Positions 19,879 through 38,674 of a stretch of 64,000 nt of DNA are shown one piece after another. The position numbers were made by a program, and so were the translations under genes. The first letter of the stretch is position 1. Each line of letters starts with the position of its first letter. The notes under the pieces are model-generated. The model saw only the letters and a program-made list of their open reading frames with translations, had not been told where the DNA came from and ran no database searches. This stretch comes from Candidatus Poribacteria bacterium (GTDB lineage: Bacteria > Poribacteria > WGA-4E > WGA-3G): contig OY282386.1 of the NCBI GenBank assembly GCA_958295945.1, forward strand, positions 1,937,371-2,001,370. The letters run 5' to 3'.

Positions 19879-20478
19879 ATGATAGTTTCAGACGAAAAAT
19901 TGATGTTAGAATGCAGTAAAGGGGATATGAGTGCATTTGAGCTGCTTGTCAGAAGGTATCAGGATGCACTTGTCAACTATATCAATTTTACGATAAATGA
20001 CTATCATCGTGCTGAGGATTTAACACAAGAGACGTTTCTTCGAGTTTTCAAGAGTGCAAATCGTTATGAACCTAAATCTACCTTCAAAAGTTGGTTATAT
20101 ACAATTGCTACCAATCTGGCAAAGAACGAATTACGAAATCGGAGACGCAGAAAAACATACTTTCTGGAAGATATGGTTGCTGAAAATGAAGATGTCTACC
20201 ATTCAGAATATATGATTGACACAAGATTTCAACCTGATATACTCTATGAGAAGAAGGAACAACAACAACTAATAAAGAAAACCTTGAATAAACTACCAGA
20301 AAATCAACGTTTAGCACTTACATTAGTAACATATCAAGAGTTAACCTATGAAGAGATTTCAGAAATCTTACAATGTTCTGTAGGAGCAGTGAAATCGTTA
20401 ATTCACCGGGCACGCCAAAATATGAAAGGACTTCTATTAAAGGCTGGAATTGGAGATAGTACCAATGTCAAAAGTTAA
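19879..20478 (+). CDS. ECF-type RNA polymerase sigma factor
   Basis: The 199-residue protein has sigma region 2 (LLVRRYQDALVNYINFTIND, then HRAEDLTQETFLRVFKSA) and region 4 (LTYEEISEILQCSVGAVKSL followed by IHRARQNMK). The ATG at 19879 is chosen because family similarity starts there and GGTGG lies upstream. The same frame also opens at a TTG at 19840. It overlaps the following anti-sigma gene by 14 bases, the usual arrangement for such pairs. Target promoters are unknown. The downstream vWA protein could be part of its regulon or signalling chain. Confidence 0.92.
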   Translation: MIVSDEKLMLECSKGDMSAFELLVRRYQDALVNYINFTINDYHRAEDLTQETFLRVFKSANRYEPKSTFKSWLYTIATNLAKNELRNRRRRKTYFLEDMVAENEDVYHSEYMIDTRFQPDILYEKKEQQQLIKKTLNKLPENQRLALTLVTYQELTYEEISEILQCSVGAVKSLIHRARQNMKGLLLKAGIGDSTNVKS

Positions 20479-20989
20479 AATAAACGAATGCAATAATATC
20501 CAAGCACAACTGTCTGCCTATTATGATAGAGAATTACCGGCGTGGAAATATCACATTATTCGCTGGCATTTAAAGCGATGTTCAGAATGTAACGCAAACT
20601 ATGCGGAACTACAGCGAACACAAACATTTCTGAATAATGTTGAACCGGTAAAAGCTACAGAAAGTCTGTTAACAAGTGTCATGTCAAGTGTAAATTCATT
20701 GAATGCGGTTCATAAAGAAAGACGGTCACTTGTCAACCGTCTCAGTTCATTTGTTGAAAGATTCCAAGGATGGATGAGAGGGAATATTCGCACTTACAAT
20801 TCATATTATATTCTGGGGTTTTTTGTAGGCGTATTCATGATGATTGGTGTTACTCTCTACTCACCACAGATTGACAAAATCAACTTACTATCACAAAATA
20901 ATGACAAGTCAATAAACAAACAAGAAAGACTGGTTGCATTTGAGGTAATATTGCAACCGGAACCAAAACGCACATTAAAAATACGATGA
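20465..20989 (+). CDS. Anti-sigma factor with zinc-binding ZAS motif and one membrane helix
   Basis: The 174-residue product has a ZAS-type motif, H35-x3-C39-x2-C42 (WHLKRCSEC), close to its N-terminus. This marks zinc-binding anti-sigma domains that hold ECF sigma factors at the membrane. A single membrane helix follows near the middle (YYILGFFVGVFMMIGVTLYS), with a short outer segment beyond it. The start at 20465 lies inside the sigma gene, so the two are translationally coupled. The signal that releases the sigma factor is not evident. Confidence 0.88.
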   Translation: MSKVKINECNNIQAQLSAYYDRELPAWKYHIIRWHLKRCSECNANYAELQRTQTFLNNVEPVKATESLLTSVMSSVNSLNAVHKERRSLVNRLSSFVERFQGWMRGNIRTYNSYYILGFFVGVFMMIGVTLYSPQIDKINLLSQNNDKSINKQERLVAFEVILQPEPKRTLKIR

Positions 20990-21001
20990 TGGGGTGGAAT
21001 A

Positions 21002-22783
21002 ATGAAATATTTTACCAAACGGCACATAAAGACATTCACACACAAAGCATTATTAGTCTCAATGATTCTTCATATCATTCTAATCATGACATTCTTTTAT
21101 TTTACGGTTAATGAGCAAGCATTACTAACATTTAAAGACAGTCTTGATGTAAGCATAACAACAGTACCGAAACAACCTTTAACAAAAATGAAAGCACCAA
21201 AGCTGCAACAAAGAAAGACGACTGTATATGACGCAGCCAAATTACCTCAGTCACAAATAGAAGCAATCACACCCGAAATTACTGTTAAACATAGACTTGA
21301 TAATTCAACACATATTATAACCGAACAACCCCGTCTTGAAGATACTAAGACTGCGCCAGATATTGATGTAAATGTTAGTACTGCACTCAATGAACTCCGA
21401 CAAGTTGAAGGAGGATTGTCAACAGTAGAATCAGCTCAATCCACCTTTGGAAATTCTCTCGGTTCAAAACGGACTGGTGAATTTGGAATTCAACGAACAC
21501 CTACCCGTTCAACTCTTGACATTGCTGGTCAGATAGGTAGCGGTGGTGATGAACCTACTGATATAGGAGATCTATATGAAACCAATCCAGAATTAACAAA
21601 AGTAACATTCAGTAGTGTAATGAAAACACTTGGTGAGGAAATCGCTGAATCAAGTGATGGCGGTCCTATTGATGTCGTTTTTGTCATTGATGCCAGTGGA
21701 AGTATGGGAGATAATATCAACGCTGTCGCAAGTCATTTGTCAGAAATGATAGATGTCTACAAATCTTCGGATATTGATTACCAATTGGGTTTAACAAAAT
21801 TCAATACAAAAGCAGGTGGTATAAAAGTAAATAACATAGAAGTCATGCAATTGACCAATAATCTAAATGAATACAAACGCAATATTAATGCAATTATTGT
21901 TGGTAAAGACGAAAATGCATTAGATGCAATTGAAAAGACTGTACTCAACATAAAGTATCGTCCTACATCACAAAAACATATCATTCTGGTTACAGATGAG
22001 CCACTTTCAAGTATTGAAGGAAAAACACTACGCAGTACTGTCGATTTGTGTCGCGAATTTGGTATCTTTGTTAACGTACTTGGACTCCATGATGATAAAC
22101 ACCAATTGCTTGCTGTAAGAACTGACGGAAGATGGCACGCCATCCCTGAAAACCCAAAGAGTACCCAACTATCACGACAATATACTCCAACCACTGAAAA
22201 AGGAAAATTACAATACCTAAGGAATGCAAAATGGACAGACCTGCAAAAGATTGGAAAGTTAGTATTGAGAAAAGCAGAGAATTCTCCTGTTGATATTGTT
22301 TTGTATATTGATGGAAGCAATAGTATGGAAGACAAAGCTTCAGCATTCCTAACGCAAATGGAGTTATGGTTTCGAGATTGGGATAATGCCCTCATAGACT
22401 ATCAGGTAGGTGTCGTCAGATTTAGGATGCGTGGTTCTGTGAATATGGTCAATGTCTATAATCCGCCTCAAACACTTGAGCAAACACGTAAAATCATTGA
22501 ACTGCCTTATAAACTCAATGAAGACCTTTTGCAGGCAATTAATGAAGGAATGAGAAAGATCAAACTACGTCCAGAAGCACAGACTTATTTAATCATAGTT
22601 ACTGACGAACCACTTGCCAGGAAAATGTCTTTTGACGGTGTGATTCAATATTTAGCAGAGAAACATGTGATAGTCAGTGTTGTCGGAACATTAGATGATT
22701 TTTTACAACAAGTCACAGTAAAGACTGGTGGTGAATGGGTCGCGATACCAAATGGATTCTTGATTAACCAGTCATATCATTAA
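21002..22783 (+). CDS. Membrane-anchored protein with two vWA domains
   Basis: The 593-residue protein has an N-terminal membrane helix (residues about 15-35, LLVSMILHIILIMTFFYF), then a polar linker of about 180 residues. Two von Willebrand factor A domains follow, with MIDAS motifs DASGSM (D230) and DGSNSM (D437). Each vWA domain has a matching later element (IILVTDEPL and LIIVTDEPL). The layout of short cytoplasmic tail, helix and long extracytoplasmic part recalls TonB-like proteins, but no TonB domain is seen. It lies 12 bases after the anti-sigma gene, so it is likely co-transcribed. Metal-dependent adhesion or complex assembly is inferred. Confidence 0.85.
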   Translation: MKYFTKRHIKTFTHKALLVSMILHIILIMTFFYFTVNEQALLTFKDSLDVSITTVPKQPLTKMKAPKLQQRKTTVYDAAKLPQSQIEAITPEITVKHRLDNSTHIITEQPRLEDTKTAPDIDVNVSTALNELRQVEGGLSTVESAQSTFGNSLGSKRTGEFGIQRTPTRSTLDIAGQIGSGGDEPTDIGDLYETNPELTKVTFSSVMKTLGEEIAESSDGGPIDVVFVIDASGSMGDNINAVASHLSEMIDVYKSSDIDYQLGLTKFNTKAGGIKVNNIEVMQLTNNLNEYKRNINAIIVGKDENALDAIEKTVLNIKYRPTSQKHIILVTDEPLSSIEGKTLRSTVDLCREFGIFVNVLGLHDDKHQLLAVRTDGRWHAIPENPKSTQLSRQYTPTTEKGKLQYLRNAKWTDLQKIGKLVLRKAENSPVDIVLYIDGSNSMEDKASAFLTQMELWFRDWDNALIDYQVGVVRFRMRGSVNMVNVYNPPQTLEQTRKIIELPYKLNEDLLQAINEGMRKIKLRPEAQTYLIIVTDEPLARKMSFDGVIQYLAEKHVIVSVVGTLDDFLQQVTVKTGGEWVAIPNGFLINQSYH

Positions 22784-29391: not shown

Positions 29392-29919
29392 CTAATACGT
29401 CAACCGATCTACTATCATATCAACAATTCCATCAGCACGATTCCGAATTTGTTCCTTTGTAAGACTTTGAATGGGATGTTCAACGGTGAGCGGTTCTAAG
29501 TCATTATAGCCAAGTACACGTGCCTGAACTTTCCCCGCAGAGAAGAATACTTCTGTACATATTGCTACGCTTGGGATTCCGCGTTCCTCTAATACACTAC
29601 CATCGTGCATACTGCACGAAATGCAGGACCCTCAGTCAGCAAGACCTTCAACAACGAAATCGACTTGTTCCGCAAGTTCAACAAGTAGTTCTGTTGGGGC
29701 AGGTCGGGAAAATGTGGGTTTTTTAACACGGACAACTTCTGTGATTTCAAAACGTTCACGTATTAATTCCTCAACACGGTTAAGGAATATATCGCTTCCG
29801 TTTTTTGTTATGTCAAGTAATCCCATTACTTTTCCATCAAGATTCTTAATGCGGGGTGCGAGGAATTTCTCGGTCGCATCGCCTTGAGAAGTGGGATTTA
29901 ACAAGGTATAATTTGCCAT
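29392..29919 (-). CDS. UGSC-family selenoprotein (in-frame UGA = Sec96)
   Basis: Two reading-frame pieces are joined by one in-frame UGA (29632-29634, minus strand). Read as selenocysteine, it gives a 175-residue protein with ...VVEGLAD-U-GSCISCSMHDGS..., the hallmark U-G-S-C motif of the UGSC family, with Sec at 96 and Cys at 99 and 102. The downstream part continues the same domain (IPSVAICTEVFFSAGKVQAR), so this is recoding, not truncation. A perfect hairpin sits 12 bases after the UGA. The ATG at 29919 has GGAGG 7 bases upstream; a TTG at 29925 is less likely. The family's reaction is unknown; a redox role is inferred from the Sec/Cys site. It follows a TPR gene by 18 bases. Confidence 0.92.
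29603..29619 (-). promoter_or_regulatory. Bacterial SECIS-like hairpin
   Basis: On the mRNA strand TCGTGCA-GTA-TGCACGA forms a perfect 7-bp stem. The loop begins with G about 20 bases after the UGA codon. Both the spacing and a G at the start of the apical loop fit the known bacterial SECIS rules for SelB binding. The element lies within the coding region, as it must in bacteria. Confidence 0.7.
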
Positions 29920-29937: not shown

Positions 29938-30264
29938 TTATTCATTATTTGCTTGCATTTGAATTTGCTGCGATTTTGCCATTGCATCTTCAGCTTCCTG
30001 AATCATGCCTTTGCGTTGGAAACAGATGGATAAACTTGTATAGGCGAGTGGATCATTCGGGTTGATTTCAATTGCTTTTTGCACTGCTTCAATGGCTTCA
30101 TCGTATTTGCTGAGTCTCTCATAGGCATGTCCTAAACCGAGATAACCTTCAATGTAGTCAGGATATGTCTCAATGAGTTCTTCAAATGCTTTGACAGCTG
30201 CGTCAAGGTCATTATCTGCGAATTGTGTTAAAGCAATATCGTATAGTTCTTCTTTTGTTTGCAT
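29938..30264 (-). CDS. Small TPR-repeat protein
   Basis: The 108-residue protein consists of about three tetratricopeptide repeats: KEELYDIALTQFADNDLDAA, IEGYLGLGHAYERLSKYDEA and PLAYTSLSICFQRKGMIQEA. No signal peptide. It lies directly upstream of the UGSC selenoprotein gene on the same strand (18 bases), so the two probably share a transcript. It may serve as a partner or chaperone for that protein; that is inference from position only. Confidence 0.85.
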   Translation of the reverse strand: MQTKEELYDIALTQFADNDLDAAVKAFEELIETYPDYIEGYLGLGHAYERLSKYDEAIEAVQKAIEINPNDPLAYTSLSICFQRKGMIQEAEDAMAKSQQIQMQANNE

Positions 30265-30463: not shown

Positions 30464-32050
30464 TCAAGTATGCTTTTGTTGCATAACAGGTATTACATAA
30501 CTTCTAATGTCAAATCCTTCTACAGTGCTGTTTTCGGTAATATGTACTGGATTCGTGCGGTGATCGAAAACTACATAATATCCTTCATTTGCACATTCAG
30601 ATTTGAGATATGATACGAGTTGGCGTTTGCCTTTTTGGAAACTTACTTCACCCCTCCACACTTTGGTTTCAACGACATATTTTCTTCTATTATGTGTAAT
30701 TAATATATCCATTCTACCGCGACCGGTTTGTACCTCAATGTGCATGAATCCACCCACTAATAGAACGAATTGCTCAAGATATGCAAGGAGTAGATGCCGA
30801 CCAACTGATTCTTGAGGTGTATCTGGTACTTGCAAGACACGAAATCCGACACGCGCAATAAAATCTCGGAAGTTATCAAGCAATTCATGCATGTTTATAT
30901 TTCCGTTCTCAGATAGGTAATCCCGAAATCCATCTTGGGTGTCCTCTGGAAGATATTCCTGTTCTAATCCATTTATAGTCGGTTTGAATGTTTGTATAAT
31001 ACAATAGAAATATATTGAATTTGCGATTTCACACATGTCATCTTTGCCCTGCTTTATTACCCCAAAAGTCGCAAGTTCGCTGATTTGGTCATCACGTAGG
31101 TTGAAAGGTAAACCATCATCAAATGCAGTAATTCTCATGAGGAGACTTTCAAAACGGGGATTTCTGCGGATGTTTGTTATCAGATGGTCAATGTTCGTAT
31201 TCCGTTCATGTAGTAGCTTATTATGTGCTTGCGTAAAATGATCCATTGTGATTGGTTTTGTTTTTGGTATTTCCAATTCATCTGTCAATATTTGTGCTAA
31301 TCGGTTGACAAGAAAAGGCTGCCCCGCGCTCTGCTTATGGACAGCTTCTATTACTTCTGATTCAAATGCCTGTCCAACTTCTTCTGTGTATTGTTCAAGC
31401 AACTCGCGCACTTGTCCAAGTGTGAAATTAGGCAGGAAAAATTCGTCTTGCACATTGAATGGAGAGATTGAGCGGTCATAGTTGAGTTGCACAATGTTTT
31501 TTACACCGACTATCCCAACGCTGTGTGGACATCTCGGTTCATCAGAAAGATAGGTGTGTCTTAGTGCATACAAAAAATCACTTACGGCATTCGTAGGTAT
31601 GCCATCAAACTCATCAATAATGATGACGATTTTCCTATTTCGCAATAGCCTTGAAAGTTGTTGAAAAAAAGTAATCATTGAAAAAGAGTCAGATAGTTGT
31701 GTATTCTCAAGCAATAATGTCAGATCTGAGGAAGGAACTATTTCGCACTTTTCAAATATTTCTTTTAACTCTCTGCAGAACATTTGATAGAGTCTCTGAT
31801 AGAAAATATCCTCAGAAATATCGCGCATCACTTGAAAATCTAATCTAATTGTCAAATAGGAGGGATTTTGAGTCGTGAGTTTATCAAGTGCCCATCGAAA
31901 AAAGGTGGTCTTACCCGTCTGTCGTGGCGCAAAGATGACGATATATCTGCCATCTTTGATACGTGTGATGAAATCATCAAGTTCCGTAGCACGACTGACG
32001 ACATAGTGCTTTTCTGGATAAACTGGTCCTTGTGTTCCAAATCGTCTCAT
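30464..32050 (-). CDS. AAA-like ATPase with C-terminal PD-(D/E)xK-like domain (copy A)
   Basis: The 528-residue protein has a Walker A motif FAPRQTGKTTFF (about residues 40-51) and Walker B IIIDEFDGIP. It also has an SVGIVGVKNIVQL segment typical of AAA-like domains (PF14516/AAA_14 type). A winged-helix-like middle follows, and a C-terminal nuclease-like motif pair GRMDILITH...YVVETKVWRG (D...ExK) near 430-455. No signal peptide. It is a paralog of the gene at 32280-33881. Residues 4-52 and about 183-500 are almost identical to that copy, but residues 53-180 are very different. Proteins of this type are widespread, often multi-copy, and of unknown role; a defence or mobile-element link is possible. 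Confidence 0.85.
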   Translation of the reverse strand: MRRFGTQGPVYPEKHYVVSRATELDDFITRIKDGRYIVIFAPRQTGKTTFFRWALDKLTTQNPSYLTIRLDFQVMRDISEDIFYQRLYQMFCRELKEIFEKCEIVPSSDLTLLLENTQLSDSFSMITFFQQLSRLLRNRKIVIIIDEFDGIPTNAVSDFLYALRHTYLSDEPRCPHSVGIVGVKNIVQLNYDRSISPFNVQDEFFLPNFTLGQVRELLEQYTEEVGQAFESEVIEAVHKQSAGQPFLVNRLAQILTDELEIPKTKPITMDHFTQAHNKLLHERNTNIDHLITNIRRNPRFESLLMRITAFDDGLPFNLRDDQISELATFGVIKQGKDDMCEIANSIYFYCIIQTFKPTINGLEQEYLPEDTQDGFRDYLSENGNINMHELLDNFRDFIARVGFRVLQVPDTPQESVGRHLLLAYLEQFVLLVGGFMHIEVQTGRGRMDILITHNRRKYVVETKVWRGEVSFQKGKRQLVSYLKSECANEGYYVVFDHRTNPVHITENSTVEGFDIRSYVIPVMQQKHT

Positions 32051-32145: not shown

Positions 32146-32283
32146 TCAATAATCAAGCACCTCTACCTCTTGAATATGTTCAAGTGCAAACACCCGAATA
32201 TCTTGCCGCAATTCACAGAACCCTTCAACACACAATGTCCAAATGGACAGAACATTAAATTCCCGATTGTGGCGAATCTTCAT
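32146..32283 (-). CDS. 45-residue WYL-domain C-terminal fragment
   Basis: A short frame encodes MKIRHNREFNVLSIWTLCVE and continues GFCELRQDIRVFALEHIQEV to EVLDY. Its last 31 residues match the C-terminus of the zinc-finger/HNH/WYL protein at 33977-34738, but the first 14 differ from the corresponding part. Its ATG overlaps the stop of ATPase copy B as ATGA, so it could be translated by coupling. It is most simply the remnant of a second WYL gene left by the tandem duplication. A small functional peptide cannot be excluded. Confidence 0.6.
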   Translation of the reverse strand: MKIRHNREFNVLSIWTLCVEGFCELRQDIRVFALEHIQEVEVLDY

Positions 32284-33881
32284 GAATGCTTTTTTTGAAT
32301 TACAGGTATTACATAGCTTCTTATCTCGTCCCCTTCTATTGTGTCGGTCTCAGTAATTTGCTCAGGATTTGTGCGGTGATCGAAAACTACATAATATCCT
32401 TCATTTGCACCTTCAGATTTGAGATATGATGCAAGCTGCCGTTTGCCTTTTTGAAAACTAACTTCACCCCGCCACACTTTGGTTTCAACAACATATTTTC
32501 TTTTATTATGTGTGATTAATATATCCATTCTACCTCGACCAGTTTGTACCTCAATATGCATGAATCCACCGACTAATAGAACAATTTGTTCAAGATATGC
32601 AAGGAGTAGATGGCGGCCAACTGATTCTTGAGGTGTATCTGGTACTTGCAAGACACGAAATCCGACACGCGCAATAAAATCGCGGAAGTTATCAAGCAAT
32701 TCATGCATGTTTATATTTCCGTTCTCAGATAGGTAATCCCGAAATCCATCTTGGGTGTCCTCCGGGAGATATTCCTGTTCTAATCCATTTATAGTCGGTT
32801 TAAATGTTTGTAGAATACAATAGAAATATATTGGATTTGCGATTTCACACATGCCATCTTTGCCCTGCTTTATTACCCCATAAGTCGCAAGTTCGCTGAT
32901 TTGGTCATCACGCAGGTTGAAAGGTAAACCATCATCAAATGCAGTAATTCTCATGAGGAGACTTTCAAAACGGGGATTTCTGCGGATGTTTGTTATCAGA
33001 TGGTCAATGTTCGTATTCCGTTCATGTAGTAACTTATTATGTACTTGCGTAAAATGATCCATTGTGATTGGTTTTGTTTTTGGTATTTCCAATTCATCTG
33101 TCAATATTTGTGCTAATCGGTTGACAAGAAAAGGCTGCCCCGCGCTCTGCTTATGGACAGCTTCTATTACTTCTAATTCAAATGCTTGTCCAACTTCTGC
33201 TGTGTATTGTTCAAGCAACTCGTGCACTTGTCCAAGTGTGAAATTAGGCAGGAAAAATTCGTCTTGCACATTGAATGGTGAGATGGATCGGTCATAGTTG
33301 AGCTGCACGATGTTTTTTACTCCGACAATCCCAACGCTGTAGGGACATCTATCTGTTGGATTAGAAAGATAAATCCGACGGAGTGAATGTAGAAATGCTT
33401 TTACTGCTTCTTTTGGAATGCCATCAAACTCGTCAATAATCAGAATAACTCTTTTTACATTATATTCATTATTTAGATATTCTCCCAATTTCCCAAAGAA
33501 TCTTCGTAATGTTAGGTTGTCGGTTATAGTTGTATCATCCATAAATAGACGAAATGAATCTGTGGTTAAAACATCTCTTTTACCCAGAACTGATTCAACT
33601 TCATCACATATATCATAATAGAGATTTTCGTAGAAAACAGATAAGGAACAGTCTTTATATTCTTCAAAATTCAAGGATATTGGAAAATGAGTTGGTTCAC
33701 TGTCAGCTATTTCTTCAAGTGCGTTGCGAAAAAATGTCGTCTTTCCGGTCTGCCGTGGTGCAAAAATGACGATATATCTGCCATCTTTGATACGTGTAAT
33801 GAAATCATCAAGTTCCGTAGCACGACTGACGACATAGTGCTTTTCTGGATAAACTGGTCCTTGTGTTCCAAAATGTTTCAT
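32280..33881 (-). CDS. AAA-like ATPase with C-terminal PD-(D/E)xK-like domain (copy B)
   Basis: The 533-residue paralog of copy A keeps the same Walker A (FAPRQTGKTTFF), Walker B (LIIDEFDGIP) and C-terminal D...ExK pair (GRMDILITH, YVVETKVWRG). The region between Walker A and just after Walker B (residues about 53-185) has its own sequence, for example FEEYKDCSLSVFYENLYYDI in place of FQVMRDISEDIFYQRLYQMF. Outside that segment only scattered substitutions occur, apart from a diverged last 20 residues. The gene lies 95 bases after the HNH/WYL gene and its stop overlaps a small WYL fragment. Confidence 0.85.
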   Translation of the reverse strand: MKHFGTQGPVYPEKHYVVSRATELDDFITRIKDGRYIVIFAPRQTGKTTFFRNALEEIADSEPTHFPISLNFEEYKDCSLSVFYENLYYDICDEVESVLGKRDVLTTDSFRLFMDDTTITDNLTLRRFFGKLGEYLNNEYNVKRVILIIDEFDGIPKEAVKAFLHSLRRIYLSNPTDRCPYSVGIVGVKNIVQLNYDRSISPFNVQDEFFLPNFTLGQVHELLEQYTAEVGQAFELEVIEAVHKQSAGQPFLVNRLAQILTDELEIPKTKPITMDHFTQVHNKLLHERNTNIDHLITNIRRNPRFESLLMRITAFDDGLPFNLRDDQISELATYGVIKQGKDGMCEIANPIYFYCILQTFKPTINGLEQEYLPEDTQDGFRDYLSENGNINMHELLDNFRDFIARVGFRVLQVPDTPQESVGRHLLLAYLEQIVLLVGGFMHIEVQTGRGRMDILITHNKRKYVVETKVWRGEVSFQKGKRQLASYLKSEGANEGYYVVFDHRTNPEQITETDTIEGDEIRSYVIPVIQKKHS

Positions 33882-37627: not shown

Positions 37628-38674
37628 ATGACCAAGAAAAAGGTCCGACTCACAGCGACTGTCAAATGCGCAGGCTGAGCATCAAAACTTGCTCCGGGTG
37701 AGTTATCACAAATCTTAGACAGCCTTCCAAAATCCACAGACCCGAATCTGCTTGTAGGGACAGAGACATCTGATGACGCTGGAATTTATCGTATATCAGA
37801 TGACATTGCACTTGTTAATACTGTAGACTATTTCACGCCCATCGTGGATGACCCTTATACTTTTGGTGCAATCGCAGCGACTAACTCACTCAGCGATGTT
37901 TATAGCATGGGTGGTGTGCCGAAAACCGCGTTGAACATCACCTGTTGGCCCAAAGATGACCTTGATCTATCAATTTTGGGTGATATTGTCAGAGGCGGTG
38001 CAGATAAAGCAGCTGAATCGGGAGCAGCACTTCTTGGTGGACATACAGTGGATTCACCCGAACTCATGTATGGTCTATCGGTAACAGGTATCGTGCATCC
38101 AGATAAATATGTTAAAAACTATGGGGCACGTCCCGGTGATGTGCTTATCCTATCAAAGAATCTCGGTATTGGTATTCTCACAACAGGATTGAAATTCGAT
38201 AAGATTAGTGATGAAATACTACCGCAGGTTGTTGAGTCTATGACACGTCTCAATGCAACTGCCTCGAAGGTGATGTTGAAATATGGTGCCACTGCTTGTA
38301 CAGATGTAACTGGTTATGGTCTGTTAGGACATGCATCAGAAATGGCAGAAGGCAACCATGTTCGTCTGCAGATAGACAGCAGTTCTGTTCCATTCTTTGA
38401 GGATGCACCACCTCTTGTTGTAAAGAATACTTATACTCAGGCATATCTTGCTAATACAAAGTTCCTTTCAGATAAGGTAACTTTCAGGACATCCGTATCA
38501 GAAGAGATGCGACATATTCTAATGGAAGCTGAAACTTCAGGTGGTTTGTTATTTGCTCTACCTGCTGAAAATGCAGATGCAGCTGTCAATGAACTTCGTG
38601 GAGTAGATTGTCCAGAAGCAGCTGTAATCGGTAAAGTTGTTGATGCAGATGGAGCACATATAGAAGTTCATTAG
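37628..38674 (+). CDS. selD: Selenide, water dikinase, a selenoprotein (in-frame UGA = Sec17)
   Basis: SelD makes selenophosphate from selenide and ATP, the donor for selenocysteine and selenouridine. The true start is the ATG at 37628. An in-frame UGA at 37676-37678 falls in TVKCAG-U-ASKLAPGE, exactly where SelD enzymes have their catalytic Cys or Sec, followed by the essential Lys (K20). Read through, the product is 348 residues, the normal length. The downstream part has the nucleotide-binding signatures (SDDAGIYRISDDIALVNTVD, DVYSMGGVPKTALNI, TDVTGYGLLGHASEMAEG). A start after the UGA, such as 37844, would lose the active site. pyrE follows after 26 bases. Confidence 0.96.
37691..37703 (+). 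promoter_or_regulatory. Possible SECIS hairpin in selD
   Basis: GCTC-CGGGT-GAGT can form a short 4-bp stem with one G-T pair, starting 12 bases after the UGA, with G at the second loop position. This fits the spacing rule for a bacterial SECIS but the stem is short, so the call is weak. Confidence 0.35.

Follow-up and report, generated by a model that had tools for sequence, protein, structure and literature searches.

The UGSC-containing protein is a major selenoprotein family of the Global Ocean Sampling (GOS) data, where it was considered likely to be thioredoxin-like (PMC2398784). A 2026 review (PMC13188914) includes the family without a function, in agreement with the preliminary description of the locus studied here, which had called the enzymatic role of the family undescribed. 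Glycine and D-proline reductases, whose subunits GrdB and PrdB form the other point of comparison, carry out reductive cleavage via a selenium-carbon bond (PMC10298544). The genes selA and selB are enriched in sponge symbionts (PMC5649159).

We analyzed a 64,000-nucleotide stretch of DNA from a sponge-associated Candidatus Poribacteria bacterium (the window), in which translation of both readings places a UGSC gene on the minus strand (Table 1); the preliminary description had given no strand. A plus-strand reading of the same interval was rejected because it is full of stops. When TGA is translated as selenocysteine (Sec), the gene forms one open frame from an ATG at 29917-29919 to a TAG at 29392-29394, and the frame resumes after the UGA as GSCISC, as had been proposed. 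The product has 175 residues from this ATG, or 177 from an upstream TTG, and the purine-rich sequence GGGGAGG lies just 5' of the ATG. Its UGSC motif occupies residues 96-99 and agrees with the [UC]GSC pattern that defines membership. The proposed family assignment also held against curated cut-offs: PF24696 (UGSC) matches residues 8-176 on both sides of the UGA (E 9.4e-50; 169.5 bits against a cut-off of 25), and NF041046 scores 158.5 bits against 125. Matches to both models across the protein indicate that family conservation continues past the UGA. The likeness to the family extends over the whole length, the UGSC motif and a SECIS-type hairpin, with nothing of substance different. Judged by sequence, the gene is thus a Sec-containing Poribacteria member of a family already known in 2008 or earlier.

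Table 1. Positions, in window coordinates, of the UGSC gene, its predicted decoding elements and associated genes.
Feature	Position	Strand	Basis
UGSC-family selenoprotein gene	29392..29919	-	PF24696 and NF041046 matches; UGA shared by about 60 orthologs
In-frame UGA, predicted Sec codon (residue 96 from the ATG, first of UGSC)	29632..29634	-	kept in all full-length Poribacteria homologs; Cys in homologs
Cys99 codon, last UGSC residue	29623..29625	-	invariant with residue 96 in wide alignment A6
Predicted bacterial SECIS stem-loop (7 bp, GUA loop, 19 nt from UGA to loop)	29603..29619	-	bSECIS model, frozen synonymous codons, covariation
Small TPR protein, directly upstream of the UGSC gene	29938..30264	-	neighbor in 47 of 62 UGSC loci examined
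selD (selenophosphate synthetase), in-frame UGA at residue 17	37628..38674	+	Sec machinery of this genome

The small TPR gene is probably cotranscribed with the UGSC gene. Elsewhere in the window, two neighboring genes (30464-32050 and 32280-33881) encode closely similar AAA-type ATPases of about 530 residues each and apparently arose by a recent tandem duplication. At 20450-22783, a 179-residue open reading frame (ORF) ends with TGA at 20989, and 12 bases on, without a change of frame, comes an ORF of 593 residues; these are probably two genes.

An AlphaFold model of the UGSC protein, built from 17 sequences with Cys in place of Sec, reached a mean pLDDT of 91.3. Its strands (E) and helices (H) run in the order E31-36, H42-56, E61-66, H76-83, E88-94, H97-112, E117-122, H123-135 and E144-146, a predicted fold that is Rossmann-like, with strands and helices alternating. 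The model sets Sec96 after the third strand, where helix 97-112 begins. The 50 best PDB matches of the model include a range of Rossmann-like and flavodoxin-like proteins besides others, with no thioredoxin fold among them; together with the alternating order, this argues against the older suggestion of a thioredoxin-like fold, which is therefore not supported here. In the wide alignment A6, only P9, Sec/Cys96, Cys99 and F125 are invariant, and Cys99 is a candidate resolving cysteine. The third cysteine of the longer motif UxxCxxC is conserved only in Poribacteria and some others, with W in many members.

Comparison with the glycine and proline reductase subunits gave faint similarity at the Sec site. 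Among 15 diverse UGSC members searched against NCBIfam, matches were obtained to GrdB (9), GrdF (5), PrdB (3) and GrdH (2), with a best E value of 0.0044, and the GrdB match in the window protein spans the Sec site. All scores against GrdB/PrdB (PF07355 type) lie below every family cut-off, the best being 16 bits against 602 for TIGR01917. Alignment with hhalign to a PrdB-like selenoprotein of Poribacteria placed Sec on Sec over 84 columns (E 0.02), at a probability of only 2.4%. Pfam cannot reveal a GrdB likeness, since the GRDB matches it gives here end at Sec. A PDB search returned no solved GrdB/PrdB relative, and by sequence no convincing relatives of the UGSC protein, the PrdB-like protein or the partner protein described below.

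With GrdB (TIGR01917) and the sarcosine and betaine reductase subunits, the UGSC protein has in common UxxCxxC at the Sec site and weak in-register profile similarity. GrdB differs in being more than twice as long and in belonging to anaerobes, and, unlike in GrdB systems, no counterpart of GrdA, GrdC or GrdE was seen adjoining UGSC genes. PrdB (TIGR04483) and a short PF07355 selenoprotein (C1:2034701) resemble the UGSC protein in being likewise short and in the UxxC motif, besides the 84 aligned columns. This PF07355/PrdB-like selenoprotein belongs to a separate family, and its gene, the second selenoprotein gene noted, lies in the same genome (locus L156, 3432-4190; about C1:2034430-2035190) and carries a UPLC motif. 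It occurs in most Poribacteria, and Pfam matches it only up to the Sec position. Kinship of the UGSC family with GrdB and PrdB is, from these sequence comparisons, plausible but unproven.

A second protein, an unannotated partner of about 340 residues, accompanies the UGSC protein. Its gene adjoins plasmid-borne Cys forms in haloarchaea, Arthrobacter, Embleya, Roseovarius and others; the Sec forms of Acidovorax and Paracoccus likewise lie beside a partner gene. The partner matched no Pfam family and no NCBIfam model at E values up to 1, PrdA and GrdE included; it had no similarity to the PrdB-like profile, and no evidence was found for a pyruvoyl group in it. UGSC sampling outside Poribacteria consisted mostly of plasmids. 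There, each of the 15 plasmid records that matched UGSC also contained the partner, as a neighboring or fused gene in the records that were read. Conversely, 9 of the 24 plasmid records with the partner had no tblastn match to UGSC; among these, records from Variovorax SRS16, Sporomusa, Vibrio and Neorhizobium (the last read in one of five records) hold a divergent UGSC domain, adjacent or fused. The Vibrio domain scores 24.9 against the cut-off of 25, and in the Haladaptatus partner record no UGSC domain was seen. A search of IMG/VR found no viral carriers of either protein.

In Poribacteria, the partner is present in 62 of 83 genomes. Both genes occur in 60 of these 83, UGSC alone in 1, the partner alone in 2 and neither in 20 (Fisher 6e-16, uncorrected for kinship), so that the pair co-occurs in 60 of the 63 genomes having either gene. 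The two genes are adjacent in two genomes (G024 and G026), fused in the Poribacteria relative G005 and unlinked on the chromosome in most. In the genome studied here, the partner lies at C1:1361338, about 606 kb from the UGSC gene; this copy (L163, 6276-7238) is missing a stretch before the C-terminal end compared with plasmid forms. Poribacteria partner gene neighborhoods vary, with a phyH-type gene downstream in some genomes.

Fusions of UGSC and partner also occur in Variovorax boronicumulans, Sporomusa and Vibrio, and the fused gene of G005 likewise carries the UGA. The GOS report notes one fusion of UGSC with a domain named Unknown_1 (PMC2398784), which has at least one conserved Cys, like the partner family; Unknown_1 is probably the partner. 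The Sporomusa and Vibrio fusions (L198, 5317-7041; L201, 5368-7053) have lost both redox residues (DMGTS), so the UGSC fold may have a nonredox use and these proteins are possibly a nonredox offshoot. Genes for aconitase X and DUF126 proteins lie nearby. The patterns of adjacency, fusion and co-occurrence suggest that the UGSC protein and the partner very probably constitute a two-component module.

Several of these loci also connect the pair with thioredoxin. The gene order in Arthrobacter is trxB-trxA-partner-CGSC, Roseovarius has CGSC followed by trxB, trxB is nearby in Variovorax SRS16, and TrxB-like proteins are encoded beside UGSC or the partner in V. boronicumulans and Haloterrigena. 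Thioredoxin or thioredoxin reductase genes near many Cys forms are a feature shared with GrdB systems. In three further loci (L128-L130), the partner gene lies upstream of UGSC, in two of them (L129 and L130) overlapping it by four bases, and encodes an additional domain at the N terminus; this domain contains CPTC and VPT motifs and matches thioredoxin in Pfam only below the cut-off. Structure prediction for this thioredoxin-partner fusion gave a pLDDT of 39, from three sequences only. Other neighbors of Cys forms include CoA transferases, TRAP/TTT transport proteins, CoA ester lyase-type enzymes and amidohydrolases, which point to small-molecule catabolism in the Cys-form hosts and suggest that the UGSC substrate is a small organic acid or amine.

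Taken together, the best overall explanation is that the Sec-containing UGSC protein and its partner form a module acting as a thioredoxin-dependent reductase, to which we assign a probability of about 0.6. The invariance of Sec/Cys96 and Cys99, with the fold, the partner and the thioredoxin link, suggests a selenol nucleophile and a resolving cysteine. Sec96, at the N terminus of a helix in a Rossmann-like domain, would attack the substrate, which the partner would bind or activate; Cys99 would resolve the selenium intermediate as a selenenylsulfide; and thioredoxin, fed from NADPH via thioredoxin reductase, would re-reduce the Sec96-Cys99 pair. That such a thioredoxin-dependent reductase would use chemistry of the GrdB/PrdB type is a tentative proposal, at slightly less than even odds. 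A shade more tentative is the fuller proposal: the pair would represent a class of thioredoxin-dependent reductase not described before, standing alone but distantly related to the Sec domain of glycine/proline reductases, and would reductively cleave a small molecule in the aerobic bacteria and haloarchaea through which it has spread, where most members are Cys forms.

Two other functions were weighed against the thioredoxin-dependent reductase. The 2008 GOS suggestion would make the UGSC protein a thiol oxidoreductase of thioredoxin fold, such as a general disulfide reductase or peroxidase, and both the UxxC motif and the nearby thioredoxin genes are in keeping with it. We consider it unlikely, given a confident model that puts Sec behind the third strand of a different fold and has no thioredoxin among its best 50 PDB matches, and a Pfam scan of the protein that yielded no thioredoxin family; further, a dedicated partner and catabolic neighborhoods fit a substrate-specific enzyme better. 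Less likely again is that a redox-active selenoprotein and its partner bind or detoxify a metal or electrophile rather than reduce a metabolite. Sec and the two cysteines of UxxCxxC could conceivably bind soft metals, but the third cysteine has the limited conservation described above, and the annotated neighbors that were read include no metal-resistance genes.

On comparative evidence, the UGA is almost certainly read as Sec with the help of the SECIS hairpin. The preliminary description had noted a perfect 7-bp hairpin with a GTA loop 3' of the UGA; the hairpin (TCGTGCA-GTA-TGCACGA) is there, one base further on than the 12 to 28 bases given, at bases 13-29 after the UGA and thus behind a 12-nt spacer. 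Allowing up to 2 mismatches, its pattern was found a single time in the window, against 0.04 occurrences expected. The expectation that it would resemble a bacterial SECIS is borne out by the published bSECIS model (PMC13188914), which calls for a loop of 3-9 nt with G in its first two positions, a stem of 4-16 bp, 16-37 nt from UGA to loop and a minimum free energy of at most -7.5; with its GUA loop, 7 bp, 19 nt and -12.8 kcal/mol, the hairpin agrees with every constraint. An Rfam scan assigned the hairpin to neither a SECIS nor any other family. By folding energy alone it does not stand out (z -1.6), and the case for a SECIS rests on conservation and covariation. In 59 aligned homologs the hairpin codons are almost unchanged, with a normalized synonymous entropy of 0.03 compared with 0.70 in 79 other conserved codons, and none of 100,000 random draws was as low. 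Pairing in the helix reaches 96% across a wider set, Acidovorax and Paracoccus plasmids included, and the pair at columns 21-27 covaries there (C-G, G-C, U-A).

Conservation of the UGA itself and the Sec machinery point the same way. UGSC genes were found in 63 of 85 Poribacteria genomes searched, and all full-length matches in these 63 have exactly one in-frame TGA; Poribacteria thus keep the Sec form almost throughout. Homologs from haloarchaea, Arthrobacter, Embleya and Roseovarius have Cys at the position of residue 96. Homologs ending naturally at the UGA, or a genome lacking selA, selB and selC, had been named beforehand as evidence that would tell against Sec. None of the former was found among the full-length Poribacteria matches (about 60), and the genome encodes selA, selB with the tRNA-Sec gene directly beside it, and selD. 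Under a table-11 reading, selD would start at 37844 and lose its first 72 residues.

An ordinary stop, whether from a truncated gene, a pseudogene or a sequencing error, would account for the halt of the standard reading at the UGA and sits easily with the unexceptional fold energy of the hairpin. Such a stop is nevertheless highly improbable, and in sequence terms already refuted by the comparative data: the UGA is common to independent genomes and phyla, the sequence encoded beyond it is conserved at the protein level but varies at synonymous sites, the hairpin excepted, and the Sec machinery is complete. Decoding as another residue, by near-cognate suppression or an altered code, has no specific support and is the least probable reading of all, since UGA terminates 9 of the 41 large ORFs in the window and is otherwise a normal stop in the genome (local recoding and not a variant code, which was rejected), homologs have Cys at that position, and a SECIS and tRNA-Sec are present.

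Sec decoding of the UGA bears on annotation, and gene callers that take UGA as a stop lose the second half of the UGSC protein. Standard gene calling had been predicted to break such genes, and this is seen in plasmid homologs with an in-frame UGA. In Acidovorax sp. T1 plasmid p2-T1 (L136, 6947-7473), which is typed as conjugative IncP, the annotation is truncated at the UGA; in Paracoccus plasmids pFER4 and pBEN (L141/L197), the gene is split into two hypothetical proteins in the former and not listed in the latter. In Paracoccus, selB lies about 4.5 kb from UGSC.

What is new here is the Rossmann-like model, the weak GrdB/PrdB likeness at the Sec site, and a dedicated partner often beside thioredoxin or thioredoxin reductase genes. 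UGSC ranks with the selenoprotein families most abundant in aquatic metagenomes and has been without a function since it was first reported. The partner, the thioredoxin link, the corrected fold and the possible kinship with glycine and proline reductases now provide a testable proposal for what the UGSC protein may do.
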